A stretch of DNA of 44,338 nucleotides. It comes from an uncultured Thiotrichales bacterium (GTDB lineage: Bacteria; Pseudomonadota; Gammaproteobacteria; CAZUMV01). Position 1 is the stretch's first letter; each line of letters opens with the position of its first letter. The stretch covers positions 1-44,338 of the forward strand of contig CALISW010000170.1 of NCBI GenBank assembly GCA_938041655.1, in the 5' to 3' direction. The notes below the pieces were generated by a model. That model saw nothing but the letters and a program-made list of their open reading frames with translations. It had not been told where the DNA came from and searched no databases. A program made the translations under genes and the position numbers. Below are positions 9,562-24,897 of this stretch, in pieces.

Positions 9562-10587
9562 ATGTTAATTAGAATTTTAATCACTCTGTTGGTTTTAAGT
9601 TCTCCTGTTACTCAGGCTGGCTGGTATGAAGTTGATACCACGCTGATGGGAACAGACGTGCATGTCTCTGCCTGGCACAAGCATGATCAACAGGCGCAGA
9701 AAGCAGTCGAGAGCGCGTTAACAGAAATGCGTCGGATCAATGCCTTGATGAGCACCTATGAATCCAGTTCTGAATTGTCCTTACTCAATCGAGAAGCCTC
9801 TCAGCAGGCAACCGTTGTATCTGACGAATTGTTGCAATTGATCAACCGCTCTCTTGAGATTTCAAAAAGTACCCATGGTGCTTTTGATGTGACCTATGCA
9901 TCAATAGGCTATTTGTATGATTACCGGGCCGGTACCAAACCCGAAGACAAACGCATTCAGGCGCAATTACCTGCTGTAAACTACGAGCACGTTGTAATCG
10001 ATGAGCAGGCAAACACGGTTGCTTATTCACATCCAGGCGTTCGAGTGGATCTGGGTGGTATTGCCAAGGGCTATGCGGTTGATCGATCGATTGAGATCAT
10101 CAAGCAGCACGGGATAGAAAATGCAATCGTAACGGCTGGTGGCGATACGCGTGTCTTGGGTAAAAAACTGGATCGTCCGTGGGTGGTTGGCATACAAAAC
10201 CCGCGTTCCGAGAAAGATGTAGTTGCCGTTATTCCATTGGTGAATGAATCTATTTCTACCTCGGGTGATTATGAGCGTTATTTTGATGATGAGGGTATAC
10301 GCTACCATCATATTATCGATCCCCAAACCGGTGACTCAGCCCGCGAGGTTAGAAGTGTCTCTATTCTCGGGAAAGAAAGTACCTACGCCGATGCATTGTC
10401 GACCAGCCTGTTTGTGTTGGGTCTGGATTCGGGGATGCAGTTAATTAATACAATTCATGGCTATGAAGCCATTCTGGTTGACCAGGAAGGTCGACTTCAT
10501 TATTCAAGAGGTCTGCAGCAATTTGCTGAGCAAGACCAACAACACGATGCGCTGGCCGGGAAGGTTAGTCAACTCGTTAATCAGTGA
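9562..10587 (+). CDS. apbE: FAD:protein FMN transferase (ApbE), exported
   Basis: Transfers FMN from FAD to a Ser/Thr of target proteins in the periplasm, making covalently flavinylated redox proteins. 341 residues with a cleavable signal peptide (cut after SPVTQA) and no lipobox Cys, so probably soluble. Family motifs present: TLMGTDVHV, the MSTYESSSELSLLN segment, VDLGGIAKGYAVD, GGDTRVLG, HHIIDPQTGDSA and the metal-site region STYADALSTSLFVLG. First gene of the long operon; the ATG at 9562 has only a weak ribosome site. Its target is probably another operon product; the DUF3570 protein carries the best-matching motif seen. Confidence 0.94.
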   Translation: MLIRILITLLVLSSPVTQAGWYEVDTTLMGTDVHVSAWHKHDQQAQKAVESALTEMRRINALMSTYESSSELSLLNREASQQATVVSDELLQLINRSLEISKSTHGAFDVTYASIGYLYDYRAGTKPEDKRIQAQLPAVNYEHVVIDEQANTVAYSHPGVRVDLGGIAKGYAVDRSIEIIKQHGIENAIVTAGGDTRVLGKKLDRPWVVGIQNPRSEKDVVAVIPLVNESISTSGDYERYFDDEGIRYHHIIDPQTGDSAREVRSVSILGKESTYADALSTSLFVLGLDSGMQLINTIHGYEAILVDQEGRLHYSRGLQQFAEQDQQHDALAGKVSQLVNQ

Positions 10588-10603
10588 GATGGTGGTATTA
10601 GAT

Positions 10604-13411
10604 ATGAAAGCATTAAACAATAAAATTAAAACGTTGAGCCTGTTGGTACTAGTCACTTTGCTGGCTGCTTGTTACGGCGGTTCAGGTGACGGAAATGGAA
10701 ACGAAGTAGCACTCGATGGCAGTACTGTGGGTGAAAGTGACACTGATAGTGGTTCACTGGTGAATGCCGACTTCTCGATTGCCTATGTAGACAGATCAGT
10801 AGAGTCTGCTGGTAACCCAACTGATGGCATTATCTTTAACCCGGGTGGTGATCTGTTTGTGAAAGATTTGTCATCGCCGAATGCCACTGAAAAAAATATA
10901 ACTGGCGAATACACGCAAGGTGAAGGCGATGTCTCTGACCCTGAAGTGTCTTATGACGCGAAAACCTTGTTGTTCAGTATGCGTGGCGCTGAGGATGAGA
11001 CCTGGAATTTGTGGGAGTATGAGCTTGAAACCGAAGAGCTGACTCGGGTCATTGCTGATGATTTGCTGGCCGACGAAGGCGATGATGTTGATGCCGCCTA
11101 TTTGCCGGATGGTCGAATCGTGTTCAGCTCCAATCGCCAGGAAAAAAGCAAACAAATGCTGGCGGCAGAAAATAAAGAAACCTATGCCTATCTCGATGAA
11201 TATGAGCGAGAGCGAACGATCGCCTTGCACGTAGTTAATCAGGGACGTGATCAGGTAAAGCAAATCTCTTTTAACCAGAGCCATGATCGTAACCCGACCG
11301 TCTTGAGCAGTGGCGAGATCATGTACTCACGTTGGGATCATGTTGGTAACCGTAATCACTTCCCGTTATTTTTTACCAACCCTGACGGCACCAGTATGTT
11401 TGTCTTGTATGGTTCTTTCAGTCCGGGTAATTCTTTTCTGCATCCGCGTGAAATGCCGGACGGCAAAGTTATTTCGTCTTTGATGCCGTTATCAGGTACG
11501 GGCGAGGGTGGTGCGTTAGTGATCATCGATGTCGATAACTTTTCTGAAAATAATGAACCTTCACCTGAATATACCGGTGAAGACGAGCAAGGTCAGGTAA
11601 GCGCTACCTTGAATGAAATACCGATTGGTGAAGAAACCTCCGAATTCGGTCGTTACTCAACACCTTATCCATTATGGGATGGCACCAATCGAGTGCTGGT
11701 CTCATGGACTGCGGCGCAAGAGCCGGATGAAGATGACATGATGATGGGTGAAGATGGGCCGCCACGTTACGGCATCCATATGCTTAATCTCGATGACACT
11801 TCACTTCGTCCTATCGCGCTCGCTGCAGAAGGACGAATCCTGACTGACCCAATCGCCATATTCCCACGTGACTTACCCAATGTGGTAGCGGACAAAACTC
11901 TTGATGCTGACTTGATCGCCGAGAACGCAGGAATTCTTAATGTAAAAAGTGTCTACGACACAGACTTCCTCGACATCATGGGTGATCGGGTACTGACCAG
12001 TAGTGAAGTTATTCCTAAAGCTGATGATGTGGCCGACTTGTTAACTCTCAAGCAAGCGAGTGCCGCGTCAAGACCCGCCAGATTTGTTCGCGTCAGTCGC
12101 GCAGTACCAACACCACCAGGTGTAATGACCGAAGATGTTGGTAACAATGAGATGGAGATGCAGGAAATTCTTGGCTACAGCACGGTTGAACCGGATGGTT
12201 CGTTGCGCATAAAAGTACCGGCTGATACGCCACTGGCACTAGCAGTAGTCGATGCCAAAGGTCGTGCTTTACAATCACACACCAACTGGTTGCAAGTGCG
12301 TCCCGGTGAAACCAGAACCTGCAATGGCTGTCATTCGCCACGTCGTGGCAGCGCAATCAACAGTGCTCCGATCGCGGGCGACCATAGCGGCACCAATTTT
12401 GCCGGCATGGAAGCCTTGGGTGAGACTATGGCTGAAACCCGCACTCGACTCGATGTTGATAGTATGGCGTTGAAAGCGGATATCGAATACGAAGATATTT
12501 GGACTATGGCCGCGGATGTTCCGGATTTGGCCTTTAGTATCACGTATGCAAATCTGCAAACACCAGCGCCCGCTAACGGCATTATTAATTATGTCGATCA
12601 TATTCAACCGATTTGGGATTTACACAACTGTGGTGGTTGTCATACCGGCGCAAATGGTACCTTGGATTTAAACAGCACGACCTCGGCAACTGGCAGACTG
12701 GCTTCCTTTGAGCAATTAACTCTGGGTGTACCGGAGCTGGATGAGGATGGCTTACCTCTGACGCGAATCGAAGAAGGCGAAATCATGGTGGTGCGTGCAC
12801 CGGCATTGGTGGAAATGGGCTCTTCTGATGAAAGTTCGCGTACCAGTCATTTGATCGAAAAACTCTATCAAACCGAGCTGCGTGCGGAACAAGCGCTAAC
12901 CGCTACTACGGTGAATCATTCGGGTATCTTGAATGATTCAGAATTGCGCCTGGTACAGGAATGGATCGATATTGGCGCGCAGTATTACAACAGTCCCTAT
13001 GAGGACGATGCCGGTAATGACAATTTTTATGCGCTCAATGAGATACGTAACTTCCCGGTCGGGCTGGATGAAGATGTGTTCGAGTCAGCGGTGCAGCCGG
13101 TGTTACTCAATCGTTGTGGTGGTTGCCATAGTGCTGTGGGTAGTGAAGGCGAACAAAATACAAATTTCTCGGCGCGCAAATTTGTGCTGACCGGTAGCGT
13201 CGAAGGAGATTTCAACATCACCCGTTCTTTGGTGAATGATATTTGTAATCCACAAAACTCACAGTTGTTGATTATGCCGACTATCATTCAGCAGGGTATT
13301 CTTGTGCATCCTGCGGTGGAAGGTGCACCTGTGCTATCAAGCAACGAAAATGATTACCAGACAATTCTGGCATGGATAGAAGATGCAGCTGCGCTCAATA
13401 ATTGTCCTTAG
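10604..13411 (+). CDS. Tri-haem PD40/beta-propeller lipoprotein resembling hydrazine synthase alpha subunit
   Basis: A 935-residue exported protein. From the ATG at 10604 a signal peptide ends in lipobox LLAAC, followed by a Gly/Asp-rich spacer. Residues about 50-400 hold TolB/PD40-type repeats (SYDAKTLLFSMR, YLPDGRIVFSSNR, LSSGEIMYSRW). Three CxxCH haem c sites follow at residues about 573, 676 and 838 (12320-12334, 12629-12643, 13115-13129). The first lies in the PGETRTCNGCH context typical of hydrazine-synthase-alpha-like proteins. That resemblance indicates fold and haem attachment, not hydrazine chemistry. Likely an outer-membrane or periplasmic electron carrier or oxidoreductase. The frame extends upstream to 10457, but that part overlaps apbE and lacks a signal peptide. 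Confidence 0.82.
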   Translation: MKALNNKIKTLSLLVLVTLLAACYGGSGDGNGNEVALDGSTVGESDTDSGSLVNADFSIAYVDRSVESAGNPTDGIIFNPGGDLFVKDLSSPNATEKNITGEYTQGEGDVSDPEVSYDAKTLLFSMRGAEDETWNLWEYELETEELTRVIADDLLADEGDDVDAAYLPDGRIVFSSNRQEKSKQMLAAENKETYAYLDEYERERTIALHVVNQGRDQVKQISFNQSHDRNPTVLSSGEIMYSRWDHVGNRNHFPLFFTNPDGTSMFVLYGSFSPGNSFLHPREMPDGKVISSLMPLSGTGEGGALVIIDVDNFSENNEPSPEYTGEDEQGQVSATLNEIPIGEETSEFGRYSTPYPLWDGTNRVLVSWTAAQEPDEDDMMMGEDGPPRYGIHMLNLDDTSLRPIALAAEGRILTDPIAIFPRDLPNVVADKTLDADLIAENAGILNVKSVYDTDFLDIMGDRVLTSSEVIPKADDVADLLTLKQASAASRPARFVRVSRAVPTPPGVMTEDVGNNEMEMQEILGYSTVEPDGSLRIKVPADTPLALAVVDAKGRALQSHTNWLQVRPGETRTCNGCHSPRRGSAINSAPIAGDHSGTNFAGMEALGETMAETRTRLDVDSMALKADIEYEDIWTMAADVPDLAFSITYANLQTPAPANGIINYVDHIQPIWDLHNCGGCHTGANGTLDLNSTTSATGRLASFEQLTLGVPELDEDGLPLTRIEEGEIMVVRAPALVEMGSSDESSRTSHLIEKLYQTELRAEQALTATTVNHSGILNDSELRLVQEWIDIGAQYYNSPYEDDAGNDNFYALNEIRNFPVGLDEDVFESAVQPVLLNRCGGCHSAVGSEGEQNTNFSARKFVLTGSVEGDFNITRSLVNDICNPQNSQLLIMPTIIQQGILVHPAVEGAPVLSSNENDYQTILAWIEDAAALNNCP

Positions 13412-13901
13412 TATAAGTCTGTTTTTTGCCGCCTGTGAGGTGGTAGATTCAGTTGATGAGAATCTGGCTGTTACCGGACGCAGTTTGTGTTTGAGTGATT
13501 ATCAGATGTGCATTGATCCGATTTTTCATGCCAACCTGTTGGGTAGTAGCGGCATTATCAATTGTTCATCCAGTGGTTGTCATGACACTGGTGCTGGTTC
13601 GGGTGGTGGCTTTAAATTACACCCAACTCCGGCATTAAATTCCGAGCAAATGCGGTCCAATTTCTTTACCGCACAAGCGTTTGCCAATTTTACTGCGGCG
13701 GGTGATTCAAAGCTGGTGCTGGAGCCTCTGACCGGGACTTTTTCGATTACAGGTAGTCATGCTGGAGGAGATATTTTTATTGATCAGACCGATCCATGCT
13801 ACATCGCAATCATCGACTGGGTCTCAAAACAGGTGGCTGATGAAAATAGTGCTGCCTGCGGTGCCTGTACTCCACCGGTTCTCAGCGCCTGCGGCTACTA
13901 G
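13383..13901 (+). CDS. Small lipoprotein with a CX4CH haem-like motif
   Basis: 172-residue lipoprotein (lipobox FFAAC) starting 29 bp inside the end of the PD40 gene, so the two are translationally coupled. It contains one C-S-S-S-G-C-H motif (13563-13583), i.e. four residues between the cysteines rather than two. A CX4CH haem site is known in some multihaem cytochromes. Several more Cys (SLCLSDYQMCIDP, CYIAIIDWV, CGACTPPVLSACGY) could form disulfides. The end pattern DPCYIAIIDWV resembles the terminal segment of cytochrome-like domains in the preceding protein. Function unknown; it probably works with that protein. Confidence 0.75.
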   Translation: MQLRSIIVLSISLFFAACEVVDSVDENLAVTGRSLCLSDYQMCIDPIFHANLLGSSGIINCSSSGCHDTGAGSGGGFKLHPTPALNSEQMRSNFFTAQAFANFTAAGDSKLVLEPLTGTFSITGSHAGGDIFIDQTDPCYIAIIDWVSKQVADENSAACGACTPPVLSACGY

Positions 13902-13937
13902 TTAGCCTGCTTATCAAGTAGAATCTAGGCACTCTAA

Positions 13938-14705
13938 ATGGACTTGAGATCTGTGGTCAGACTGATACAGCCAACAATATTTCTATTGTTGATCTTCATG
14001 CTTAATGTAGGTGCCGCCAATGCGGCTGAAGATCAGTATTTGCGCGTGCAAGTGACAGAGCCCTATCTGGAAATGTATACCGGCCCCGGGCGTGGCTTTC
14101 CGCGTTTCTATTCGGTAGAACGTGGTGAGTGGGTAGAAGTTATCAGCCGCAAGACAGACTGGTTTCAGGTCAGAACCCGCAAAGGTAAAAAGGGTTGGGT
14201 AAAAAGAGCTGAGTTGGAAAAAGCTCGGTCAATGAGTGGCTCACAGCTGGTCTTTGGTGGTAGTGGCGATGGCGACTTCCTGGGCCGTCGCATCGAACTG
14301 GGTTTTGTTACCGGTGTTTTGGAGGACGACCCGTTAATAGGTTTGCGAGCTGCCTGGTATTTGACTGATGGCATCGCACTGGAAGGTGCTTTTTCACATG
14401 TGCCGGGAGAATTCTCACGCTCATTTATTTATTCTGCCAATGTGGTGATGCAGCCCTATCCAGAGTGGAAATATTCTCCTTATGTCTCATTGGGTGCTGG
14501 CACCATAGAAAACGAGCCTAAAGCCACCTTGATTGGTGTGCGTGATACAGACGCTACAGTCTGGAGTGCAGCGCTAGGGGTGCGACGACAAATCTCTGGC
14601 AAGTTTATGTTCAGGCTTGAGGTCAGGGACCACCAGGCGCTGGTGAATTCATTCAATAATCAAAACCTGCTGGAGATCACAGCCGGTGTTTCATTCTTTT
14701 ATTAA
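13938..14705 (+). CDS. Outer-membrane beta-barrel protein with N-terminal SH3 domain
   Basis: 255 residues with a signal peptide (cut near ANAAEDQ). Residues about 35-95 form a bacterial SH3 domain (VTEPYLEMYTGPGRGFPRFYSVERGEWVEV..., then TDWFQVRTRKGKKGWV), often a peptidoglycan- or peptide-binding module. The rest (about 105-255) alternates polar and hydrophobic residues in strands and ends SFFY, fitting an eight-strand OM barrel of the kind shared by myxobacteria and gammaproteobacteria. It precedes a second barrel by 9 bp. The SH3 would lie in the periplasm and could tie the barrel to the wall or to the TPR scaffold. Confidence 0.78.
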   Translation: MDLRSVVRLIQPTIFLLLIFMLNVGAANAAEDQYLRVQVTEPYLEMYTGPGRGFPRFYSVERGEWVEVISRKTDWFQVRTRKGKKGWVKRAELEKARSMSGSQLVFGGSGDGDFLGRRIELGFVTGVLEDDPLIGLRAAWYLTDGIALEGAFSHVPGEFSRSFIYSANVVMQPYPEWKYSPYVSLGAGTIENEPKATLIGVRDTDATVWSAALGVRRQISGKFMFRLEVRDHQALVNSFNNQNLLEITAGVSFFY

Positions 14706-14714
14706 GGTGCTCAA

Positions 14715-15377
14715 ATGATAATAACTACAATCAGGCATGGGGTCGTTTCATTATTGCTGTTGATTTTGTGCTCACCCGTAGCTGTAGTCGCTGCAGAAGA
14801 GATAGAAGATTCACTCGAGGATGTCGAGCAAGTTGTCGTGCCTGAAATTTACCGGCGCGATGTTAAAGCCCCCAAAATTGATGCACGTGATTTCGAAGTA
14901 ACGGCTTATGTGGGTATTTTAAATATGGAGGATTTTGGCGCTAACGCAGTCGGTGGCTTACGCCTTGCTTATCATATTACTGAAGACTTTTTTATGGAGG
15001 CTGGCTTTGGCGCCTCTGAAATCAATGATGATTCGTTTCGACAATTTGGACTCAATGTTTTTCCATCATCACAAGAGTCACTTACTTATTACGATCTGAT
15101 GGTTGGCTACAACGTCTTGCCAGGTGAGTTTTTCTGGGGTGAAAATTATTCTATTCCCAGTGCGCTTTATGTCAGCGCTGGTGCCGGAAGTATGACTTTC
15201 GTGGATGAGGATTTTTTCACTGCCAATTTTGGTTTTGGCGTGCGTGCCCTGATTACCCAGGCGATCAGCGTGCATATAGATTTACGTGATCGGGTGATTT
15301 TTGATTCGGCCATTTTAGGTGATGAAAAAATCACCAATAATCTTGAGTTTACGATCGGTCTGGGCGTGTTTTTCTAG
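14715..15377 (+). CDS. Outer-membrane beta-barrel domain protein
   Basis: 220 residues: signal peptide (cut near VVAAEE), a short acidic stretch, then a barrel-like region from about residue 58 (FEVTAYVGILNMEDFGANAVGGLRLAYHITEDFFMEAGFGAS) to a terminal GVFF with aromatic final residue. The pattern matches the small OM barrels found beside AgmX/PglI-type proteins. It is a paralogue in shape to the preceding SH3-barrel. In the Agl/Glt comparison these two would take the place of GltA/GltB-type barrels; that is inference from context, not from sequence identity I can measure. Confidence 0.75.
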   Translation: MIITTIRHGVVSLLLLILCSPVAVVAAEEIEDSLEDVEQVVVPEIYRRDVKAPKIDARDFEVTAYVGILNMEDFGANAVGGLRLAYHITEDFFMEAGFGASEINDDSFRQFGLNVFPSSQESLTYYDLMVGYNVLPGEFFWGENYSIPSALYVSAGAGSMTFVDEDFFTANFGFGVRALITQAISVHIDLRDRVIFDSAILGDEKITNNLEFTIGLGVFF

Positions 15378-15389
15378 GAGGCCATACTT

Positions 15390-15917
15390 ATGAAAAAATT
15401 TACATTGAAACCAGCGTTACTTAAATACGGTTTATTGGTAATTATTTTACTGGCCCCAGCTATTGTTGCCGGAAAGTCATCTATGGTTGGTAAAGTCGGA
15501 CCTGATTTTGCAGGTTTAAGTTTTGACGGGTATTCACATCGTCTTGATGAGTTTAAAGGCAAAGTGATCATGATTAATTTTTGGGCCAGTTGGTGCGGCC
15601 CCTGCCGTCAGGAAATGCCGCCGCTGGAGCAACTTTATCAGCAGTATCGCAGCCTGGGCTTTGTGATTGTTGGCGTCAATGTCGATGAGAAGCTGGAGCC
15701 GGCAAAGAAAATGCTCGACAAGCTCGGTATTACTTATCCCAATGTTTTTGATAGCGATAATAATATTAGTAAAGGCTATAACGTTAGCGCCATGCCGATG
15801 ACAGTGATTATGGATACCACGGGAACAATCCGTTACGTCCATTACGGCTTCAAATCTGGTTACATGGATAAATACAGCCGCGAAGTGCGCCAGCTGTTAA
15901 CGGAGGCGCAACAATGA
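15390..15917 (+). CDS. TlpA/ResA-like periplasmic thiol-disulfide oxidoreductase
   Basis: 175-residue thioredoxin-fold protein with an N-terminal signal peptide or anchor (about 12-28). The active site WCGPC is at 15591-15605, cis-Pro in the AMPMTVIMD segment, and the preceding FKGKVIMINFWASW is typical of TlpA/ResA. It would reduce or exchange disulfides in the periplasm, e.g. keep haem-binding Cys of c-type cytochromes or the Cys tail of the next gene's product reduced. Excellent AGGAGG ribosome site at about 15376-15381. Overlaps the DUF4266 gene by 4 bp. Confidence 0.92.
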   Translation: MKKFTLKPALLKYGLLVIILLAPAIVAGKSSMVGKVGPDFAGLSFDGYSHRLDEFKGKVIMINFWASWCGPCRQEMPPLEQLYQQYRSLGFVIVGVNVDEKLEPAKKMLDKLGITYPNVFDSDNNISKGYNVSAMPMTVIMDTTGTIRYVHYGFKSGYMDKYSREVRQLLTEAQQ

Positions 15918-16150
15918 AGAAACTTTTTATAATAATTTGTCTGGGCCTGTTGGGCGGTTGTTCAAGTGTTGAGAAAGTACTTTCGCCAGAACCGTGGGTC
16001 ATGCCGTATGAGCGTGGTGAGTTGGCACAACCCATTATGCAGTTTAGTCGCAATCCGCTTTCCGACAAATTCAGGCAACACGTGTTTGATACCCGTGAAG
16101 GTGCACGTGGCGCCGGCGTAACCCAGGGTGGTGGTTGTGGCTGTAATTAG
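15914..16150 (+). CDS. DUF4266 lipoprotein with C-terminal Cys-Gly-Cys tail
   Basis: A 78-residue lipoprotein: signal peptide with lipobox LLGGC (Cys16), a PEPWVMPYERGELAQPIM core, SDKFRQHVFDTREGARGA, and a tail GGGCGCN whose two Cys codons are 16136-16138 and 16142-16144. The pattern fits the DUF4266 family; function unknown. The exposed CGC tail immediately after a TlpA-like gene suggests a thiol, metal or cofactor role. From memory, DUF4266 and DUF3570 genes commonly sit together near apbE; I could not check this. Its end overlaps the DUF3570 start. Confidence 0.82.
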   Translation: MKKLFIIICLGLLGGCSSVEKVLSPEPWVMPYERGELAQPIMQFSRNPLSDKFRQHVFDTREGARGAGVTQGGGCGCN

Positions 16151-17231
16151 ACACAGCAGTGTTATTTTGTTGTTGATGTTGCTCAACCTGGCAACAGCTG
16201 AAACCCTGCCAGAAGACATGGTGCAGTTGATGTACCACAGTTACGACGGTGGTGGTGTTGAAGTGAACGGGCCTGCCTTATTGGTACGCAAAGAATTCAA
16301 AGATCAGTTTTCGGTAAACGCCGGTTACTATCAGGATTCAATCAGCGGCGCTTCGCCAGATGTGATCGCTTCTGCCAGTCCTTATTCTGAAACACGTGAT
16401 GAATTCTCGCTGGGTGTTGATGCGCTGCTGGGAAACAGCCTGGTTTCATTGGGTTATATCAATAGTGATGAAGATGATTATGAAGGGAATAATTTCAGTT
16501 TTGGAATTTCACAAAGTTTCTTTGCGCAGATGACCACAATGAGTCTGGGTTATACGGTAGGACAGGATACGGTCAAGCGAGTAGATAACGACTTCGCTGA
16601 AGATATTGATCGTTATCAATTTAGCGTTGGTCTCACTCAGGTGCTTACCAGCACCATGCTGATGAACCTGACCGCGGAAGGTATTACCGAAGAAGGTTAC
16701 TTAAGTAATCCTTATCGCTCCAAACGGGTGTTTGGCACATTTGCCGGCTCCGAAATTTACCCGCGTACCCGCACCAGTACAGCTTTCGCGGTGCGACTGA
16801 AGAAATTACTCTGGAGCGACGATGCGGCATCAATCAGCTATCGCTATTTTGATGACAGCTGGGATATCGTCTCACACACACTCGAGTTGGGATTCACCAG
16901 AACCTTGAATAATCGCTCGGTCGCCGATCTGGTCTATAGATACTACGACCAAAGCGGTGCTTCATTCTTTAGCAGTGATTTTCAGGGATTGTTTCAATTT
17001 ATGGCGAGTGACAAGGAGCTCAGTACCTATCAAAGTCATACGATAGGATTGAATCTCACTTATGAGTTATTTAACGATTATTTATATGGCTTTGACCGTG
17101 GTGAGCTTGGTTTCGCCTATGATTTTAGAATGAACGAGTACGAAGATTATTTCGCGCCTAATTCTAGTAGCACAGAACCATACGAATTCGATGCAAATGT
17201 ATTCAATATAAATCTGTCACTATTTTACTGA
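16137..17231 (+). CDS. DUF3570 outer-membrane barrel with an ApbE-site-like motif
   Basis: Exported protein of 364 residues, rich in amphipathic strands and ending NINLSLFY with an OM-type terminal aromatic. I chose the GTG at 16137 (preceded by AGGGTGG), which gives a normal signal peptide cut before ETLPEDM; it overlaps the DUF4266 gene by 14 bp. Near the N-terminus YYQDSISGASPD contains D-x-x-S-G-A-S (16335-16355), close to the ApbE modification consensus D-x-x-[ST]-G-A-[ST]. A second SGAS follows a tyrosine-rich segment later (DQSGASFF). Function unknown. A flavin-bearing barrel is an inference to be tested. Confidence 0.8.
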   Translation: MAVIRHSSVILLLMLLNLATAETLPEDMVQLMYHSYDGGGVEVNGPALLVRKEFKDQFSVNAGYYQDSISGASPDVIASASPYSETRDEFSLGVDALLGNSLVSLGYINSDEDDYEGNNFSFGISQSFFAQMTTMSLGYTVGQDTVKRVDNDFAEDIDRYQFSVGLTQVLTSTMLMNLTAEGITEEGYLSNPYRSKRVFGTFAGSEIYPRTRTSTAFAVRLKKLLWSDDAASISYRYFDDSWDIVSHTLELGFTRTLNNRSVADLVYRYYDQSGASFFSSDFQGLFQFMASDKELSTYQSHTIGLNLTYELFNDYLYGFDRGELGFAYDFRMNEYEDYFAPNSSSTEPYEFDANVFNINLSLFY

Positions 17232-17249
17232 CAGAGCAGGAGACGAACA

Positions 17250-17975
17250 ATGGATGTTGTGAAAACATATCTTTCGCTATTACTGTGGGTGCTCATCCTA
17301 AGCACACCATTAGTAGCAGAGGAAGCCGCTGAAATAGATGATCCTGAGGCAGGCACGTATTTAATCGATGAGTCTGAATCGCAGGTTATTCTGGATGGAG
17401 AGTTAACCCCTGAAGGACAGCGTGCAATGCAAGAGGCGCGTGAAAGGGGTGAGTTACCAAACACAAATGCGGAGACTGTCGAGACCAATGCCGCTGATGC
17501 CAAATTAATGGATGAGATGCCGGAACTGGCTGCGCGCGGTCTGGATGAAGAAGTGCAGTCACTTAAGGAAGAAGTGCTGATTCTTAATCGCGAGTTGTTT
17601 TCGCTGGAAGAAGAATTGCTGTTTCCATCCAATACCCAGTTTGCCGTCTATGTTTCGGTAGACGTTGGCGAATTTTTTGACATGGAGTCGGTGCGCGTAT
17701 TAATGGATAACAAACCGATTGCCAGCTATCTCTACACCAAGCGTGAATCAGATGCCTTGATGCGTGGTGGCGTGCACCGGATTTATATAGGCAACCTGAC
17801 GGCGGGTAGTCATGAACTGGTTGCGTTTTATACCGGTCGTGGTCCACGTGGTCGTGATTTCAAACGGGCGACCAAGCGCACTGTCAATAAAGAGCTTGGC
17901 CCCAAGTACGTTGAACTAAAAATTGCCGATAACCAGGGCAAAAAACAAGCAGGATTTGAAGTTAAGGAATGGTAG
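17250..17975 (+). CDS. Periplasmic coiled-coil protein of unknown function
   Basis: 241 residues with a signal peptide (cut near LVAEE). An acidic region (about 24-90) precedes a heptad-like coiled coil (about 98-124, EEVQSLKEEVLILNREL...). The C-terminal domain (about 128-235) is beta-rich, with AVYVSVDVGEFFDMESVRVLMD, a basic RGPRGRDFKRATKR segment and a final VELKIAD strand pair, looking like an Ig- or carbohydrate-module-like fold. I do not recognise a named family. Starts 18 bp after DUF3570 and ends 16 bp before the first TPR gene. Position between barrels and TPR scaffold suggests a linker or adaptor. Confidence 0.7.
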   Translation: MDVVKTYLSLLLWVLILSTPLVAEEAAEIDDPEAGTYLIDESESQVILDGELTPEGQRAMQEARERGELPNTNAETVETNAADAKLMDEMPELAARGLDEEVQSLKEEVLILNRELFSLEEELLFPSNTQFAVYVSVDVGEFFDMESVRVLMDNKPIASYLYTKRESDALMRGGVHRIYIGNLTAGSHELVAFYTGRGPRGRDFKRATKRTVNKELGPKYVELKIADNQGKKQAGFEVKEW

Positions 17976-17991
17976 CCGCCATTTAGCCACT

Positions 17992-19890
17992 ATGAGATTT
18001 ACACGCCAACTTTTGTTGCTTGCAACATGCGTGCTGTTCAGTGCAGCCGCATCTGCAGCAGATGAGCCGGGACCAGAAGACATCATTCTGGATTTACCCT
18101 ATGGCGTAGTTTTGTTTGATTTTTATCAGCAAAATTATTTCACTTCGCTGGTTAACCTGATCAAAGCTCAGAAAGATGACACAGTGCCACAGCACGAAGC
18201 TGAAGCAGAATTGCTGCGCGGCGGTTTATATCTTTCTTATGGTATGCGCGGGCGCGCCGAAGAGATTTTTAAAAATGTTCTTGATATAGAGCCACGTCAG
18301 GACGTCAAGAATAGAGCCTGGTACTACTTGGCGCGTATCGCGTATCAGCGTGGCCTGCCAGAAAATGCACTGTCTTATCTGAGCAAAATCAGAGGTGAGT
18401 TGCCCGATACTCTGGTGGGTCGTGACCAGTTAATGGCGGCGATCATCAATATTCAGCAAGGCGACTTTCTGGACGCCTACAGTGGTTTATCAGACTGGGA
18501 AGGTGAGACCGATATTAAACACTACGTGGAATATAACCGCGGGGTGGCAGCACTAAGACTTGGTGATACTGATAAAGGCACCGACATACTCGATCTGTTA
18601 GGCCGTCAAAAATTCGGCAGTGAAGAATTTGAATTACTGGCATTGAAAGACCGAGCCAATCTCGCGGTAGGGATGCACTTGCTGCGTGAAGAGAGCCCGG
18701 AAAAAGCGCGTTTTTATCTGGACCGCGTACGTCTTAACGGGCCTTTTGCCAATGAGGCTTTGTTGGCAGCGGGTTGGGCTGATGCGCGCAATGAATTCTA
18801 TCAACCGGCGATGATTCCATGGAATGAACTGGCCAGTCGTAATGTACTCGACCCGGCGGTGCAGGAATCCTTATTTGCTATTCCTTATGCAATGGCTAAA
18901 GCAGGTGGTTTTGCACAAGCGGCGGCGGGTTATCAGCAAGCGCTGGATATTTTCCGAGCCGAGCAAGAAAAACTCAAAGCCGGAATTGAGCTGGTAAAAG
19001 AGGGCGGTTATCTGGACGATTTGCTGAGCAGTGCCGAAAAAATTGAAATGGGTTGGCTGCGCGAACTGAAGGTTGTAAATGAGGCACCTCAGCCGTGGTA
19101 CCTGGATGAACTGTTGTCCTCGCATCGGGTACAAGAGTCATTGAAGAATTATCGTGATCTGTTGTTTCTGGATTACAATCTGACAACCTGGGATGAGTCG
19201 ATCGATAGTTTTGATGAAATGCTGACTTTGCGAGAACGTCGATTTGAGACGGTAGTACCCTCGGCGCAGACAAAGTTATCGGATAACGAGCAGGAAAACC
19301 TGCAAAACAAGTTTGCACTATTGAACCAGCTGTATCTGAGTGCCTCTGAAAAAGAGAAGTTACGTTTGCTGGCAACGCCGGCCGAGTTAAAGAAGTTGCA
19401 GCGCTTGGATAAATTACAGCAATTGATTTCAAAACACCCCAATGCAAGAGCGCACGCTTACTTGTTGGGTAGGGTGGATTTTCTGAAGGGAATACTATTT
19501 TGGGATATCTACAACACCCTTGAAAAGCGGGAAAGAAAATCCGGCCGTGCATTGCAGGACCTTGAAACAGAGTTTGAGCAAAGCAGGGAGTTTATCGCAA
19601 GCATCAATCGTTTGATGGCAGATCTGCCTGCCGGGTTCGAAGGTTTTGCAGAAAAAATCCAGGCCAAGCGCTCAGATTTAAGTGGTGCGCGTGAAAAGCT
19701 GGAGACTGTTACGCAAAAGCAAAAAGCACAATTGACCGAGGTTGTGGTGGGTGAGTTGGAGCAACATGTCGCCAGAATTGATGAATTGAAATTACAGGCG
19801 GCTTTTGCATTAGCACAGATCTATGATCAGGATAGTGAAAAAGAAGAGGATGATGACAAGCCTCAAAATAACCGTGGAGTAGCCAGATGA
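17992..19890 (+). CDS. Exported TPR-repeat scaffold protein 1
   Basis: 632 residues. From the ATG at 17992 a signal peptide is cut near ASAADEP; the frame extends upstream to 17923 but overlaps the previous gene and would bury the signal. TPR-like helical repeats are clear at about 65-170 (AEAELLRGGLYLSYGMRGRAEEIFKNVL, AWYYLARIAYQRGLPENALSYLSKI) and around 290-330. The C-terminal 150 residues are coiled-coil-like, ending QAAFALAQIYDQDSEKEE. Probably periplasmic. In the Agl/Glt comparison it would correspond to a GltC/GltD-type TPR protein. Stop overlaps the next ATGATG. Confidence 0.8.
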   Translation: MRFTRQLLLLATCVLFSAAASAADEPGPEDIILDLPYGVVLFDFYQQNYFTSLVNLIKAQKDDTVPQHEAEAELLRGGLYLSYGMRGRAEEIFKNVLDIEPRQDVKNRAWYYLARIAYQRGLPENALSYLSKIRGELPDTLVGRDQLMAAIINIQQGDFLDAYSGLSDWEGETDIKHYVEYNRGVAALRLGDTDKGTDILDLLGRQKFGSEEFELLALKDRANLAVGMHLLREESPEKARFYLDRVRLNGPFANEALLAAGWADARNEFYQPAMIPWNELASRNVLDPAVQESLFAIPYAMAKAGGFAQAAAGYQQALDIFRAEQEKLKAGIELVKEGGYLDDLLSSAEKIEMGWLRELKVVNEAPQPWYLDELLSSHRVQESLKNYRDLLFLDYNLTTWDESIDSFDEMLTLRERRFETVVPSAQTKLSDNEQENLQNKFALLNQLYLSASEKEKLRLLATPAELKKLQRLDKLQQLISKHPNARAHAYLLGRVDFLKGILFWDIYNTLEKRERKSGRALQDLETEFEQSREFIASINRLMADLPAGFEGFAEKIQAKRSDLSGAREKLETVTQKQKAQLTEVVVGELEQHVARIDELKLQAAFALAQIYDQDSEKEEDDDKPQNNRGVAR

Positions 19891-22679
19891 TGAATTTGCT
19901 ACGACACGCGTTAGTGGTGCTCATCCTGTCTTTGACGCTTTCCGCCTGCGGCACCATGAGCAATATGATAGCCAAGGGTGATAAGTCGCCAACCTTGAGT
20001 GATCTGTATGATCGCCCGGTCCCGGTGATCGATGAACAGCCCATCGCCAAAAGTCGTGAGCTGGCAGAGCAATCTTACCGGCAAATGCTGGATCTGGATG
20101 AAGGTTCAGCCATGCGCCCGGAAGCGTTGCGTCGTCTGGCTGATATATTGTCTGACGTTAATGCGATCATGAATGATGATGATGAGCTGGATGAGGTAGC
20201 GCTGGCTGAGGCGACCGGTTTGTACAATGAAGCGCTGGAAAAATATCCTGACTATCGTTCGCGCGACAAAATTCTCTATCAACTCGCTCGAATTAATGAT
20301 CAAAATGGCGATCCGGATAAATCACACCAGTATTTGAACGATTTGGTCGAGCAGTATCCGGAATCCGAATACTTACAAGAAGCCCAGTTCCGACGTGGCG
20401 AGTACCTGTTCATTGAAAAAGAATATACCAGTGCACAAAACGCCTATGAGTCGGTGATTGAGATCGATACGAAAACAAAATTCTACGAGCCGGCGCTCTA
20501 TAAAAAGGGCTGGGCATTGTTCAAGCAGAATGAATATGAACTGGCGGTAAATGAGTTCACTACGATACTGGACCGGCGTGTAGCCAATGGTCAACGTGAT
20601 CTGGAAAAATTATCCCGTCCACAACGCGAGCGTATTGAAGATTCGCTGCGAGCGATCAGCTTAAGCTTCGTCTATCAGGAAGGCGCTGACACCGCGCTGG
20701 AATATTTCACCAAATACGGCGCCAAAAAATATGAGGAGCTGGTGTACGTCAAGCTGGCAGAATATTACATTGATAAAGAACGCTATACCGATGGTGCGGA
20801 AACATACGCAGGCTTCCTGCAGCGTAATCCCTGGCATGAAAATGCGGCTGATTTTCAGGCACAGGTTATAGCGACCCTCAAAGAAGGCAATTTCCCGACC
20901 TTGGAACTGGAGGCTCGTAAAGAGTTTGTCACCTTGTTTGATGTGGAGTCAGAGTATTGGGAATATTATCCGATAGGCGATAATGATCACATTGTGGATG
21001 AAGTGAAAACCAATATTGTTGATTTGGCGAATCATTATCAATCACTGGCACAAAAAGACAGTAACAACGAAGACTATCTGGAAGCCGAGACTTGGTACAA
21101 ACGCTTCCTGAGTTCATTTCCCAAAGACGAAAAAGCACCCGAAATAAATTATTTGCTGGCTGAATCGTATTACCAGAACGAACGTTATCTGGAGTCAGCG
21201 CAGGCGTATGAGCAGGTTGCCTATGAGTATGAAGCGCACCCGAAAGCATCTGAAGCAGGTTATGCAGCCTTGTTGGCCTATCAGGAAGTGGCCAAGTCGA
21301 ATACCAGCGCGTCAGATCCAAAAGTCGGTGATGCTTTTGCTGCCAGCGCCATACGTTTCGAAAAAGCATTCCCTGGTCATCCCAAGGCTGATGAGGTTTT
21401 GGTTAGTGTGGCACAGACCCAGTTTGATGAGCGTAATTATGATCAGGCGATGAAGATTGCGGAACGCTTGTTGAATAAAGATCCAAAGCCAAGTGCGGAA
21501 AATCGCAAAATCGTCTGGACCATTGCTGCCAATACCCAGTTTGAGCGTAAAGCTTATGAAGAGGCTGAAATTGGTTATAGCCAGGCCATAGCCCTGATGG
21601 AGCCGACCGACCCGCTAAAATCAGATTTGACCGAAAACCTGTCGATTGCCGTGTACCGTCAGGGTGAAGCGGCGCGTGATGCTGGTAAAACCCAGGCGGC
21701 TATTGATGCCTTCCTGCGTGTTGCTGCTGTCGCTCCGGGTACTGAAGCGGCGGTCACCGGACAATATGATGCGGCGGTGATATATATAGGTGACAAGAAA
21801 TGGCGCGAAGCAATTCCGATCATGGAATCTTTCCGGGTCAGTTATCCGGGTCATGAGTTGCAGACTGAAGTCGATAAAAATCTGGCTACGGCGTATCTTG
21901 AAACCGACCAGCCAGTTAAGGCTGCGGCCGAGTTCCAGCGTCTGGCACAAACCGGTGAAACAGAAGAGATCCGGCGAGAGGCAATTTTGCAGGCCTCGGA
22001 TTTGTACGCCGAAGGTGGGGAGAACAACCGCTCCATCGCCATGCTTGAACAGTTTGTTAATGACTTCCCAACTCCGGCAGAGCCTGCGATGGAAGCAGCC
22101 TCAAAACTGGCGACTCATTATGAGAAATTATTTGGTCCTCAAGGTGCTTATACCTGGCATGAAAAAGTGCTTGAGTTGAACCGTGGCGGCGGTGCCAATG
22201 ATAGAACTCGTTATTTAGCGGCTAAGTCTACCCTAGCACTGGTTAAGCCAGCGGTAGATGCCTATCAGAGCGTTGCACTAGTGGCGCCATTGAAAGACAC
22301 ATTGCGCCAGAAAAAAGAATTGATGGAAGCGGCGCTGGCAAAATATGCAGATCTTTCGAGTTTTGGAATAGCCGAGATATCAACCGAAGCGGCTTATCAG
22401 ACAGGATTTATCTACGATGATTTCTCGGAAGCCATCATGGACTCGGAACGTCCTGCCAATCTTGATGCTGACGCGCTTGAAGAATACGAGATATTGCTGG
22501 AAGAGCAAGCCGATCCGTTTCTGGAAAATGCTATTGAAGCGCATGAGGTTAACGTCGGTCGTATCAATGAAAATATTTATGATGAGTGGGTCAAAAAGAG
22601 TTTGGCGGATTTGAAAAAGTTATTGCCCGCCCGTTACAACAAAGAGGAGCGAACCAGTGCCGTTATCCGTGTTCACTAA
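19887..22679 (+). CDS. Large TPR-repeat lipoprotein 2
   Basis: 930-residue lipoprotein (lipobox LSAC after a 20-residue signal). Repeats of TPR/BamD-YbgF type run through most of the chain: YNEALEKYPDYRSRDKILYQLARI, KSHQYLNDLVEQYPES, AQNAYESVIEI, AETWYKRFLSSFPKDEKAPEINYLLAESYYQ, and later AIDAFLRVAAVAPGT. It therefore forms a long superhelical periplasmic scaffold, most likely held at the outer membrane. Starts by overlap with TPR1 and overlaps the next gene by 23 bp. Giant TPR proteins (GltD/AgmU, GltI/AgmK) are part of the Myxococcus gliding machine, which is the closest functional comparison. Confidence 0.85.
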   Translation: MMNLLRHALVVLILSLTLSACGTMSNMIAKGDKSPTLSDLYDRPVPVIDEQPIAKSRELAEQSYRQMLDLDEGSAMRPEALRRLADILSDVNAIMNDDDELDEVALAEATGLYNEALEKYPDYRSRDKILYQLARINDQNGDPDKSHQYLNDLVEQYPESEYLQEAQFRRGEYLFIEKEYTSAQNAYESVIEIDTKTKFYEPALYKKGWALFKQNEYELAVNEFTTILDRRVANGQRDLEKLSRPQRERIEDSLRAISLSFVYQEGADTALEYFTKYGAKKYEELVYVKLAEYYIDKERYTDGAETYAGFLQRNPWHENAADFQAQVIATLKEGNFPTLELEARKEFVTLFDVESEYWEYYPIGDNDHIVDEVKTNIVDLANHYQSLAQKDSNNEDYLEAETWYKRFLSSFPKDEKAPEINYLLAESYYQNERYLESAQAYEQVAYEYEAHPKASEAGYAALLAYQEVAKSNTSASDPKVGDAFAASAIRFEKAFPGHPKADEVLVSVAQTQFDERNYDQAMKIAERLLNKDPKPSAENRKIVWTIAANTQFERKAYEEAEIGYSQAIALMEPTDPLKSDLTENLSIAVYRQGEAARDAGKTQAAIDAFLRVAAVAPGTEAAVTGQYDAAVIYIGDKKWREAIPIMESFRVSYPGHELQTEVDKNLATAYLETDQPVKAAAEFQRLAQTGETEEIRREAILQASDLYAEGGENNRSIAMLEQFVNDFPTPAEPAMEAASKLATHYEKLFGPQGAYTWHEKVLELNRGGGANDRTRYLAAKSTLALVKPAVDAYQSVALVAPLKDTLRQKKELMEAALAKYADLSSFGIAEISTEAAYQTGFIYDDFSEAIMDSERPANLDADALEEYEILLEEQADPFLENAIEAHEVNVGRINENIYDEWVKKSLADLKKLLPARYNKEERTSAVIRVH

Positions 22680-23292
22680 AGTTTGTCTCGCTTTGACGCT
22701 GTTTTTTTTGGTAGCTTGTGAAAGCATGCCTTCGTTACCGGGGTCTGGTGGTAATAAAGAAAGTACGGTCAAAATACCTGGTGGGGTTAAGTCTCCACTC
22801 GGTGATGAAGCGACGCTGACGCCAGCTGATCAAGCCATCATGCTCAGGGCAGTGGCAGCTATGGATGCAGGTAATTACGCGGTCGCCATAACTGAATTTA
22901 AAGCACTGTCGGTCAGTAATCCGAAACTGGCAATGCCTTATATCAACCTGGCTATCGCTTATCGTACGCAAGCAGATAGTGATGCGGCGGTGCGCTCAAT
23001 TGCGCAAGCCTTGAAGTTGTCACCGAACAGTCCGGAAGCAAACAATATTCGCGGTGTGCTGTGGCGTGATGCGGGAGAATTTACCAAAGCCAGAGATAGT
23101 TACGCCAAAGCGATTGGCGCCAATGAAGCCTATCTGGATGCCCAGCTGAATCTGGGGATATTGTGTGATTTATATCTACAAGATCTGGCCTGTGCAAAAA
23201 AACACTATGAAAATTACCAGTCCGGAAGTAGTACCGAAGACCGCACGGTTAAAGGGTGGTTGATAGAACTTGAACGCAGGATGAAAAAATAA
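22657..23292 (+). CDS. TPR lipoprotein 3 (GltE/AglT-sized)
   Basis: 211-residue lipoprotein (lipobox LVAC) with three to four TPR units between about 60 and 185 (MDAGNYAVAITEFKALSVSNPKLAMPY, AVRSIAQALKLSPNSPEAN, KARDSYAKAIGANEAYLDAQLNLGIL). It has the GTG start at 22657 with a good AGAGGAG ribosome site, lying 23 bp inside the end of TPR2. Its size and design match small TPR lipoproteins such as GltE/AglT or PilF; PilF is less likely because no pilus genes are near. Its stop shares a base with the next ATG. Confidence 0.82.
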   Translation: MPLSVFTKVCLALTLFFLVACESMPSLPGSGGNKESTVKIPGGVKSPLGDEATLTPADQAIMLRAVAAMDAGNYAVAITEFKALSVSNPKLAMPYINLAIAYRTQADSDAAVRSIAQALKLSPNSPEANNIRGVLWRDAGEFTKARDSYAKAIGANEAYLDAQLNLGILCDLYLQDLACAKKHYENYQSGSSTEDRTVKGWLIELERRMKK

Positions 23293-23651
23293 TGGTTTTC
23301 AGAACCGTATTACAGTTTTTAGCACGATTGAGCTGTTTAATTATGCTCGGCTTACCGATAATATGCGTCGCTGCAGAAGAAGAGCCTGATGACAACCCGG
23401 CTCAGACAGAATATTTTGAAGAAGATGCTGTCCTGAATATGGATGGTATGGCTGTAACCGGTAATCAGGAATTGCCGAAATCTCTGATGATTGTGCCCTG
23501 GCAAGAGCCCGGTGCCGGAGATTTATTTGCAGGTGAATTTGAAAGCTTGATTGATCGGGATCCAGCTACGATTGATCGTACAGAATTTGTAAGAGAACTG
23601 GATTATTACCGCCTGCGTAAAGGTGAGTTTTTAGACCCCGAGAGAGATTAG
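23292..23651 (+). CDS. Small periplasmic protein of unknown function
   Basis: 119 residues with a signal peptide (cut near CVAAEEE), acidic N-terminal part, then VTGNQELPKSLMIVPWQEP and a C-terminal helix-rich RTEFVRELDYYRLRKGEF. No family recognised with confidence. The compact motif ELPKSLMIVPW looks like the conserved core of such a family. It lies between the TPR lipoprotein and the ExbB gene, the same place and size class as GltF in Myxococcus; that is a positional comparison only. Translationally coupled (1-bp overlap) to TPR3. Confidence 0.7.
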   Translation: MVFRTVLQFLARLSCLIMLGLPIICVAAEEEPDDNPAQTEYFEEDAVLNMDGMAVTGNQELPKSLMIVPWQEPGAGDLFAGEFESLIDRDPATIDRTEFVRELDYYRLRKGEFLDPERD

Positions 23652-23692: not shown

Positions 23693-24337
23693 ATGATTGA
23701 TACGGTATTTAAATTTTTTCAGGATGGTGGAGCATTTATGTTTCCAATCGCCATCGTACTTGCACTTGGCTTGGCTATTGCCGTAGAGCGCTGGATTTAT
23801 CTGACCCGCGCACGAGTCAGTAACTTGTTGCGCTGGCGTAAATTACAGCCGATGCTGGAGAAGGGTGAATTACGCTCAGCGTTAAATACTTCCAGTGGTT
23901 CAAACTCGGCAATTGATAAAATCCTCACCTACGGTTTGTCGCGTGCAGCCAATTCAACCAGCAGCGCTGAAGTAGAGATGGCGATGGAAGAGGGCTTGAT
24001 GGAAGTCATGCCGCGTTTGGAAAAAAGAACGCATTATCTTGCCACGCTGGCGAATATTGCGACCCTGCTAGGCCTATTGGGAACCATCATAGGTTTGATT
24101 AAAGCCTTTACCGCCGTGGGTGAAGCGAACCCGGCTGACAAGGCTGATTTATTATCAGCTAGTATATCGGTAGCGATGAACACTACCGCCTTCGGTCTGA
24201 TGGCGGGTATTCCGTTATTGTTATTACATGCCTTGCTCACGACCAAGACCACCACCGTAGTTGATAGTCTGGAAATGGCGACGGTCAGAATTATGAACAT
24301 GATCACTGGCCACTCTGCCAAAGCCAAGCAACAGTAA
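23693..24337 (+). CDS. MotA/TolQ/ExbB proton-channel protein
   Basis: Inner-membrane subunit of a proton-driven motor, 214 residues with three TM helices (about 14-35, 117-141, 155-183). Family motifs are clear: ERWIYL after TM1, LATLANIATLLGLLGTIIGLIKAF in TM2 and SISVAMNTTAFGLMAGIPLLLLH in TM3. It would form the ring around the ExbD dimer. AATGGAGA ribosome site. It is followed by two ExbD genes and a TonB-like gene, so all parts of an energised transmembrane motor are encoded together. AglR of Myxococcus is the best functional comparison; ExbB of iron transport is less likely because no TonB-dependent receptor is near. Confidence 0.93.
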   Translation: MIDTVFKFFQDGGAFMFPIAIVLALGLAIAVERWIYLTRARVSNLLRWRKLQPMLEKGELRSALNTSSGSNSAIDKILTYGLSRAANSTSSAEVEMAMEEGLMEVMPRLEKRTHYLATLANIATLLGLLGTIIGLIKAFTAVGEANPADKADLLSASISVAMNTTAFGLMAGIPLLLLHALLTTKTTTVVDSLEMATVRIMNMITGHSAKAKQQ

Positions 24338-24342
24338 TAAAT

Positions 24343-24897
24343 ATGTCACGACGTCGCAGGCATTCCCGCTACAAGCCGGATACCGAGCTTAACATTACCG
24401 CCTTTATGAACTTGATGGTGGTGCTAGTGCCATTCCTGTTATTGATGGCGGTGTTTACGCGCCTGACAGTCATAGAACTGGCGTTGCCTGGACCGTTGAC
24501 CGATGCAGAGCCTCCGGAAGATCCACCGATTGAGCTGGAACTCGTGATTCGTGAAAACCGTATCGATATTCAAGACCGAGGGTCAGCCTTGTTAGGAGAG
24601 TATCCCAGGGTTGATGGTAAGGATGACTTCAAACCTGTCATAGAGAAATTGCGTCAGGTAAAATCACAGTTCCCTGAGATCGTGACTGCCTCCATTCTGG
24701 CGGAAGACGATGTTCCTTATGACCGCATAGTCCAAGTCATGGAGGTCATGCGTAGCTACAATACTGAAGGGGAAGAGGGCATCATTCAGGAAGAGCTGTT
24801 TCCTGAAATCTCTTTAGGAAAAGCGACGGTGCTTGATTTGCCTGAAGGTGCTCGAGAAATTGTTCAGCCTTACGATACGAGTGAGGCGAGCCAATAA
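24343..24897 (+). CDS. ExbD/TolR-like protein 1 with Asn in place of the TM aspartate
   Basis: 184 residues: short basic cytoplasmic start (MSRRRRHSRY), one TM helix (about 20-44) and a periplasmic domain. Aligning NITAFMNLMVVLVPFLL with the E. coli ExbD segment VTPFIDVMLVLL puts Asn23 (codon AAC, 24409-24411) where ExbD has its essential proton-carrying Asp25. The periplasmic part begins ELALPGP and contains IQDRG...DDFKPVIEKLRQVKSQFPE and a VPYDRIVQVMEVMR helix typical of the family. The substitution suggests that this copy cannot carry protons and pairs with ExbD 2. Separated by 5 bp from ExbB. Confidence 0.9.
   Translation: MSRRRRHSRYKPDTELNITAFMNLMVVLVPFLLLMAVFTRLTVIELALPGPLTDAEPPEDPPIELELVIRENRIDIQDRGSALLGEYPRVDGKDDFKPVIEKLRQVKSQFPEIVTASILAEDDVPYDRIVQVMEVMRSYNTEGEEGIIQEELFPEISLGKATVLDLPEGAREIVQPYDTSEASQ

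Follow-up and report, generated by a model that had tools for sequence, protein, structure and literature searches.

The 44,338-nt stretch analysed here, referred to below as the window, is contig CALISW010000170.1 of an uncultured Thiotrichales bacterium (GCA_938041655.1), and all positions are those of its forward strand. It carries seventeen same-strand genes at 9562-26386 that are separated by gaps of no more than 41 bp. Near the start of this run lie two genes for predicted lipoproteins. The product of 10604-13411, which we call HzsAL, resembles the alpha subunit of hydrazine synthase (HZS) and has three CxxCH motifs; the product of 13383-13901, which we call the CX4CH lipoprotein, has a single motif of wider spacing. 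With modest confidence, we favour a model in which the whole run specifies a dedicated system for extracytoplasmic electron transfer, with these two proteins as its haem component. What gives the locus its interest is a flavin, thiol and haem redox module set on a Glt/Agl-like motor.

The large lipoprotein HzsAL

The gene for HzsAL begins with an ATG at 10604 and encodes 935 aa on the + strand. The product is probably lipid-anchored, as predicted from its lipobox (Cys23), and has CxxCH at residues 573, 676 and 838 with no further CX2-4CH. Residues 506-577 match PF18582 (HZS_alpha) with E 1.9e-19 and 70.5 bits, against a gathering cut-off of 26.6. The best structural match of the predicted model (predicted local distance difference test, pLDDT, 81.0; predicted template-modelling score, pTM, 0.84) is HZS alpha itself (5c2v; Foldseek E 9.5e-32), with Z 34.5 and a root-mean-square deviation of 3.4 over 592 aligned residues within model residues 55-817. 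A prediction made earlier from the letters of the window had described an HZS-alpha-like three-haem lipoprotein with PD40 repeats. Profile match, motifs, lipobox and fold bear out this description, and the predicted model supports a propeller; the PD40 match itself is weak (E 0.0011, 19.3 bits) and falls under its cut-off of 20.9.

Conservation was assessed in two sets of sequences, which overlap in that some contigs apparently occur in both. The class genomes are 274 genomes of the host's class, of which 38 contain a match to HzsAL at a threshold of E 1e-10. Larger stretches from 32 of these 38 make up the 33 class regions; apart from the host genome itself, G067, G076, G186, G193 and G244 lie outside them and are known from matches or short loci only. 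The named loci are the best 80 of at least 344 confirmed stretches from a scan of named genomes with a profile of eight aligned HzsAL sequences. They belong to Gammaproteobacteria and Burkholderiales, and the isolates among them include Thioalkalivibrio sp. XN8, Panacagrimonas perspica DSM 26377, Ideonella alba, Caldimonas caldifontis, Rhizobacter and Methylibium. The principal HzsAL alignment has 101 rows, namely the window, 76 named loci with open reading frames (ORFs) >800 aa and 24 regions of a two-haem group; L083, L140, L143, L148, L060 and regions L031-L038 were left out of it. Further alignments combined the window with 37 of the 80 named loci or 17 of the 33 regions (HzsAL) and with 64 of the 73 named proteins (CX4CH lipoprotein).

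All residues of candidate haem I (H559, C573, C576 and H577) and candidate haem II (C676, C679, H680 and H772) are invariant across the 101 rows. C838, C841, H842 and H902 of the third domain are kept in 76, 75, 75 and 74 of the 77 rows that comprise the window and the 76 named loci; the 24 two-haem rows have none of these four residues. The rows without H902 are L149, which is of the two-haem type, and L133 and L141, whose genes reach the contig end. Shuffling the residues of HzsAL produced three CxxCH motifs in 0 of 20,000 trials, and motif conservation is much stronger evidence for haem sites than these shuffling statistics. HzsAL very likely carries haem, and haem I is probably bis-His by way of H559. 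The spacing within the motifs is 2-2-2 in 49, 2-2-3 in 25 and otherwise in 6 of the 80 named HzsAL proteins, so that CX3CH stands as the third motif in 25 of them. Spacing also varies within one genus, the second motif being CSQSQCH in one species (L042:3394-6009) and CSLCH in another (L044:13369-15966).

Comparison with hydrazine synthase

The window HzsAL, as the one member compared, was aligned to 5c2v with a numbering offset of 27 derived from the published His587 and His772. According to PMC12758564, the residues of interest in HZS alpha include His587, His772, which is the distal ligand of haem alpha-II, and Tyr591, which is an iron ligand of haem alpha-I. In the alignment H577 falls on His587 and H772 on His772; Tyr591 is replaced by Arg, and Cys303, a Zn ligand, by Glu in a weakly scored stretch. 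H559, which is invariant in the HzsAL family, aligns with an Ala of HZS. The NCBIfam equivalog for HZS alpha (NF052339) gives 64.4 bits and does not reach its cut-off of 800. Pfam scans found no beta/gamma-like HZS gene in the operon, the rest of the genome not having been searched for them.

HZS alpha from Kuenenia (5c2v) and HzsAL thus both have a propeller, a middle domain with haem I and a second haem with the equivalent of distal His772. Unlike HZS alpha, however, HzsAL is a predicted lipoprotein and has an additional third haem domain. The distal His is retained in the HzsAL family, whereas clade I HZS homologues are described as having no His772 (PMC12758564). Model and alignment together indicate that HzsAL has the HZS-alpha fold without the published active-site residues, and its likeness to HZS is, by this comparison, limited to common fold and ancestry. 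Hydrazine synthesis by HzsAL was rejected because the active-site residues are replaced and Pfam shows no beta/gamma gene in the operon.

The CX4CH lipoprotein

The second gene, also on the + strand, overlaps that of HzsAL by 29 bp (13383-13411) and encodes 172 aa with CSSSGCH at residues 61-67. Its product is probably lipid-anchored, as predicted from the lipobox at Cys18. The original prediction had proposed a lipoprotein with a rarer haem-site spacing here, and conservation agrees with it: C66 and H67 are invariant in 74/74 aligned rows, and H126, the likely distal ligand, is kept in 72. C61 is kept in 71 of the rows, the other three (L088, L091 and L094) having CxxCH at the site. Counted over the 73 named proteins of the family, the spacing is CX4CH in 70 and CX2CH in 3. 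A CX4CH motif arose by chance in 189 of 20,000 shuffled versions of the small protein.

The same prediction had offered, as the finding that would speak against it, that the CX4CH cysteines are in disulfides only. Such a disulfide-only motif is disfavoured by the natural replacements with CxxCH and by the poor retention of C36, C139, C159 and C162, which just 24, 20, 18 and 17 of the 74 rows have; C66 is the sole invariant cysteine. C43 and C170, which are kept in 71 and 68 rows, could form a disulfide pair.

Comparison of profiles relates the two lipoproteins to each other. The CX4CH-family profile matches the third haem domain of HzsAL with a probability of 97.0% and E 1e-10 (hhalign), against 24.8, 5.7 and 0.06% in control comparisons with the second haem, the first haem and the propeller. 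The alignment accommodates two extra residues inside the CX4CH motif and places H126 on H902 and W146 on W924. On the basis of this match we read the CX4CH lipoprotein as homologous to the third haem domain of HzsAL, one domain that occurs both fused and free, and it very likely carries haem. Its AlphaFold model has a pLDDT of 83.9. A profile search of the PDB gave only matches of E at least 0.96, and comparison of 65 relatives with Pfam gave two single weak matches.

CX4CH sites occur in other c-type cytochromes, among them the TIGR01904 domain from Geobacter and Desulfovibrio cytochrome c3. The window lipoprotein has the spacing of TIGR01904 in common but belongs to a different family, which is predicted to be monohaem and in whose haem site 2 or 4 residues separate the cysteines. 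In HzsAL and its free-standing relative, the haem sites of related domains form a natural series in which the cysteines are separated by 2, 3 or 4 residues; it should be useful for work on cytochrome c maturation and for the counting of haem motifs in genomes.

The seventeen-gene run

The remaining genes of the run are listed with the two lipoprotein genes in Table 1. The original prediction had placed both lipoproteins with the flavins and thiols of their operon, and ApbE, DUF3570, TlpA and DUF4266 are indeed found in the same run. As an interpretation it was right on the haem sites and on this placement, and missed the homology of the third domain, the replaced HZS residues and the continuation of the operon into a motor core.

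Table 1. Genes of the run at 9562-26386, with the family matches or candidate sites on which each description rests
Product	Position	Strand	Evidence or candidate sites
ApbE, FAD:protein FMN transferase, signal peptide	9562..10587	+	PF02424 E 5.8e-86
HzsAL	10604..13411	+	C23 lipobox; candidate haem I C573/C576/H577 + H559
HzsAL, further candidate sites	10604..13411	+	haem II C676/C679/H680 + H772; haem III C838/C841/H842 + H902
CX4CH lipoprotein, predicted monohaem	13383..13901	+	C18 lipobox; C61/C66/H67 + H126
SH3 + predicted outer-membrane beta-barrel	13938..14705	+	PF08239 E 7.3e-9; PF13505 and TIGR04565 below cut-off
Predicted outer-membrane beta-barrel, OMP_myx_plus	14715..15377	+	TIGR04565 E 1.3e-38, above cut-off
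TlpA/ResA-like thioredoxin, WCGPC	15390..15917	+	PF00578 E 1.2e-25
DUF4266 small lipoprotein, C-terminus GGGCGCN	15914..16150	+	PF14086 E 5.2e-22
DUF3570 protein, flavinylation motif SGAS at 73-76	16128..17231	+	PF12094 E 4.2e-42
Protein without Pfam/NCBIfam family (gene 17250), used here as motor-core marker	17250..17975	+	Pfam/NCBIfam scans
Secreted protein, weak tetratricopeptide repeat (TPR) matches, motor core	17992..19890	+	Pfam/NCBIfam scans
TPR lipoprotein, GltD-like in size and position alone	19887..22679	+	tol_pal_ybgF TIGR02795 E 2.7e-40, above cut-off
TPR lipoprotein, GltE-like	22657..23292	+	NF033758 GltE E 5.1e-8, below cut-off
Small conserved core protein, no Pfam family	23292..23651	+	conserved in regions
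AglR-like MotA/TolQ/ExbB motor protein	23693..24337	+	PF01618 E 8.6e-28
ExbD/TolR-like motor protein	24343..24897	+	PF02472 E 2e-14
Second ExbD/TolR-like motor protein	24897..25403	+	PF02472 E 1.4e-13
TonB-like transducer, AgmX/PglI C-terminal domain (GltG/GltJ-like)	25400..26386	+	NF033768 E 1.9e-18, above cut-off

Flavinylation of a DUF3570 protein has been shown in Chlorobium luteolum (PMC8238504). The window protein contains SGAS twice, at residues 73 and 276. At the first site, D70, A75 and S76 are kept in 91, 91 and 90 of 93 aligned rows; strict SGAS is mostly absent from the set, and the aligned form is S-x-A-S. The motif is mostly S-N-A-S or S-S-A-S, which together account for 60 of the 93 rows.

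The published flavinylation clusters, as presented in PMC8238504, and the window both combine ApbE, DUF3570, DUF4266 and a thioredoxin-like protein. The thioredoxin of the window is PF00578, whereas PF13899 is the family named for the published clusters; the window has no adjoining DsbD, which some of those clusters have, and it adds the haem lipoproteins, two further barrel proteins and the motor core. The words 'hydrazine', 'PD40', 'AglR', 'gliding' and 'ExbB' are absent from the main text of that study.

The original prediction had remarked that no inner-membrane electron donor is encoded nearby, and Pfam scans of the 38 window products likewise gave no NapC- or DsbD-type match. It had proposed a search for ccm genes and quinol dehydrogenases elsewhere in the genome. 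In the host genome, which is 84.6% complete, the former are present at the level of the Cytochrom_C_asm family (CcmC/CcmF-type); the latter gave no match of the NapC/NirT type, and DsbD was found instead, on another contig. By analogy with published DUF3570 clusters, in which thioredoxin and DsbD occur together (PMC8238504), a path from DsbD to TlpA is the simplest candidate for the inner-membrane link.

The distal part of the run contains an AglRQS-type motor set (MotA/ExbB and two ExbD) and a GltG-type TonB-like transducer with an AgmX/PglI domain (NF033768) above cut-off. The transducer also matches NF033761 (GltJ) with E 2.9e-9, the GltG and GltJ equivalogs both remaining below cut-off. 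A gammaproteobacterial gltC/D/E/G and aglRQS core of unknown function was described by Luciano et al. (2011, PMC3169522), and in that core as in the window a single cluster combines MotA/ExbB and two ExbD with TPR proteins and a TonB-like transducer. The window motor and transducer genes fit this core, and we call them Glt/Agl-like; the TPR proteins are no more than candidates for GltC, GltD and GltE. Gene 17250, the gene that begins at that position, may be the extra core gene mentioned by Luciano et al. (PMC3169522). Its occurrence parallels that of the motor core, with matches in 59 of the 274 class genomes. The words 'cytochrome', 'thioredoxin', 'thiol' and 'redox' are absent from the main text of PMC3169522, and a literature search of limited depth found no report linking the HzsAL/CX4CH pair with the motor core.

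Linkage and distribution

Named isolates such as Panacagrimonas perspica DSM 26377, Thioalkalivibrio sp. XN8 and strains of Rhizobacter and Methylibium have these genes clustered. All 55 named loci with 9 kb available downstream of HzsAL contain the CX4CH gene, both barrels, DUF4266, DUF3570, gene 17250 and the first TPR gene, and 54 of them TlpA and the second TPR gene. ApbE lies upstream in 67 of the 73 named loci for which 2.5 kb upstream were available. Of the 80 named loci, 73 yielded a CX4CH gene; four of the seven loci without it end at a contig edge, and L149 is of the two-haem type. The CX4CH-family profile has matches in 15 of the 274 class genomes, the 11 best of which (E < 1e-30) all lie beside HzsAL. 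Eight of the 33 class regions (L031-L038) have the three haem motifs with a CX4CH gene behind HzsAL. The SH3 protein, the second barrel and DUF3570 each occur in 32 of the 33, DUF4266 in 31 (tblastn) and TlpA in 30; a count of DUF4266 by ORFs is lower because ORFs <90 aa were excluded. An all-against-all clustering of unassigned ORFs was confounded by reverse-frame ORFs; two of its clusters were examined further.

DUF3570 occurs in 71 and gene 17250 in 59 of the 274 class genomes, and each is present in 37 of the 38 genomes with HzsAL (Fisher p 7.6e-25 and 3.5e-29, uncorrected for relatedness). The sole exception (G034, locus L060) has two propeller pieces in separate ORFs that match HzsAL residues 51-443 only and have no CxxCH, which suggests that it has lost the system. 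The pieces lie at L060:12938-14827, in a single-contig genome without DUF3570 or gene 17250 matches.

A proposed model of extracytoplasmic electron transfer

The haem motifs, their conserved candidate ligands, the haem-domain homology and the gene linkage are properties of the sequences themselves. In the scenario that we envision, both lipoproteins are c-type cytochromes with their anchors in the outer membrane. HzsAL would be a three-haem propeller whose haems, each of them probably bis-His, would accordingly relay electrons without making hydrazine. The monohaem CX4CH protein, with two extra residues between the cysteines of its haem site, would extend this relay. The membrane partner would be the DUF3570 protein flavinylated by ApbE, and the thiols of TlpA and DUF4266 could serve as an additional input or output. 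The Glt/Agl-like motor, driven by protons, and its TPR scaffold would cross the envelope and either energise the assembly or set its position. What we infer in this model is that haem is bound, that its coordination is bis-His and that both proteins sit at the outer membrane, as well as the passage of electrons between haem, flavin and thiol and physical contact with the motor.

Several observations weigh against it. The model of the CX4CH lipoprotein has no match among solved structures in Foldseek, and no Pfam or NCBIfam family covers the protein. Only 20 of 93 DUF3570 rows keep G74, the G of the published flavinylation motif, and conservation does not extend to the second SGAS in the window protein. 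As evidence of linkage, the named loci were collected by way of HzsAL and lean toward the window's own type, and the p values above do not allow for relatedness. Two named loci (L108 and L143) have sequence behind HzsAL yet no CX4CH match. Among the class regions, 25 of 33, the propeller pieces of L060 included, have HzsAL without the third motif and no CX4CH gene, ApbE is found in only 11, and gene 17250 is found in 20, lying outside the fetched stretch in the other 13. Gene 17250 occurs without an HzsAL match at E 1e-10 in 22 class genomes, five of which were inspected (L064-L069). G017 has both barrels, TlpA, DUF3570 and the core genes but shows no ORF with a haem motif in the part in view, and G035 has a CX4CH lipoprotein (CSRSGCH) with no HzsAL detected. 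As each occurs without the other, HzsAL and the CX4CH lipoprotein are not obligate partners. The remaining three show a CAEPGCH protein near the contig start (G178), a piece of HzsAL at the contig start that was missed at the threshold (G048) and a contig that ends within the barrel gene (G093).

Judged from these genomes, the haem part looks like an exchangeable module on a flavin, thiol and motor base. Near HzsAL in the 25 regions without a CX4CH gene, 21 have a LamG-type gene (with two CxxCH in 18 of the 21, three in one and none in two) and 20 a PSD2-type gene with one CxxCH, so that other haem partners seem to replace the CX4CH protein there. Both genes are divergent from HzsAL in the regions inspected. 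A Pfam check confirmed LamG in 3 of 3 and PSD2 in 1 of 2 tested. At L051:16045-19707 and its equivalents, upstream of HzsAL, they encode a PSD2-type (DUF1585) monohaem protein of ~410 aa and a LamG lipoprotein of ~840 aa.

HzsAL might instead be an enzyme, with a catalytic haem I of peroxidase or N-oxide type, H559 acting catalytically on its distal side, and haems II and III and the CX4CH haem feeding haem I. The HZS-alpha architecture and the invariant pocket region are retained, and one group has raised the possibility of other substrates for HZS-like proteins (PMC10732223). We nevertheless regard an enzyme as unlikely, since Tyr591 and Cys303 are not kept in the window protein (the latter by a weak alignment), H559 would fit a sixth ligand, and the operon has no beta/gamma-like gene by Pfam. 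The idea of a true hydrazine synthase of a new lineage has next to no probability: against the PF18582 match stand the low equivalog score, the replaced key residues and again the lack of any beta or gamma match in the Pfam scans of the operon. Also improbable, in our estimate, is a sensory or structural role of the two haem proteins within the Glt/Agl-like machine, with haem serving signalling or stability rather than flavin-directed electron transfer. The cluster does have a TolQR-like motor and a TonB-like transducer, and TolB, a partner in the Tol system, is the second-best fold match of the HzsAL propeller (Z 27.5); but the presence of ApbE, TlpA and DUF4266 in the operon speaks for redox traffic, and three to four haems would be many for a sensor.

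A further alternative concerns TlpA alone and is compatible with most of the electron-transfer model. TlpA could be a maturation factor of CcmG/ResA type for the apocytochromes of the operon and stand outside the electron path, as its best NCBIfam match, ResA, might suggest (E 9.3e-33; 113.6 bits, below the cut-off of 170). TlpA is, however, retained in a cluster without a haem-motif ORF in view (L064), and in the published clusters the thioredoxin goes with DsbD, so we consider this role for TlpA rather unlikely.

The preferred model, in which HzsAL and the CX4CH lipoprotein relay electrons within the run, joins three open questions: the role of HZS-alpha-like proteins outside anammox bacteria, the purpose of DUF3570 flavinylation, and the task of the Glt/Agl core in organisms that are not known to glide. 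It also raises the tentative idea, which we lean against for now, that extracytoplasmic electron transfer is the dedicated task of the proton-driven Glt/Agl-like core in gamma- and betaproteobacteria, which would make it a motor-driven redox conduit. If that were true, the motor would move, extend or open an outer-membrane assembly of barrel proteins, haem lipoproteins and flavinylated DUF3570 for electron exchange with an outside partner.

Other features of the window

Two groups of genes on the minus strand lie beyond the run. Two adjoining amidohydrolase-family proteins of 429 and 1000 aa are encoded at 30873-35161, and an AcrB-type RND efflux pump with a HlyD-type adaptor at 39890-44003.

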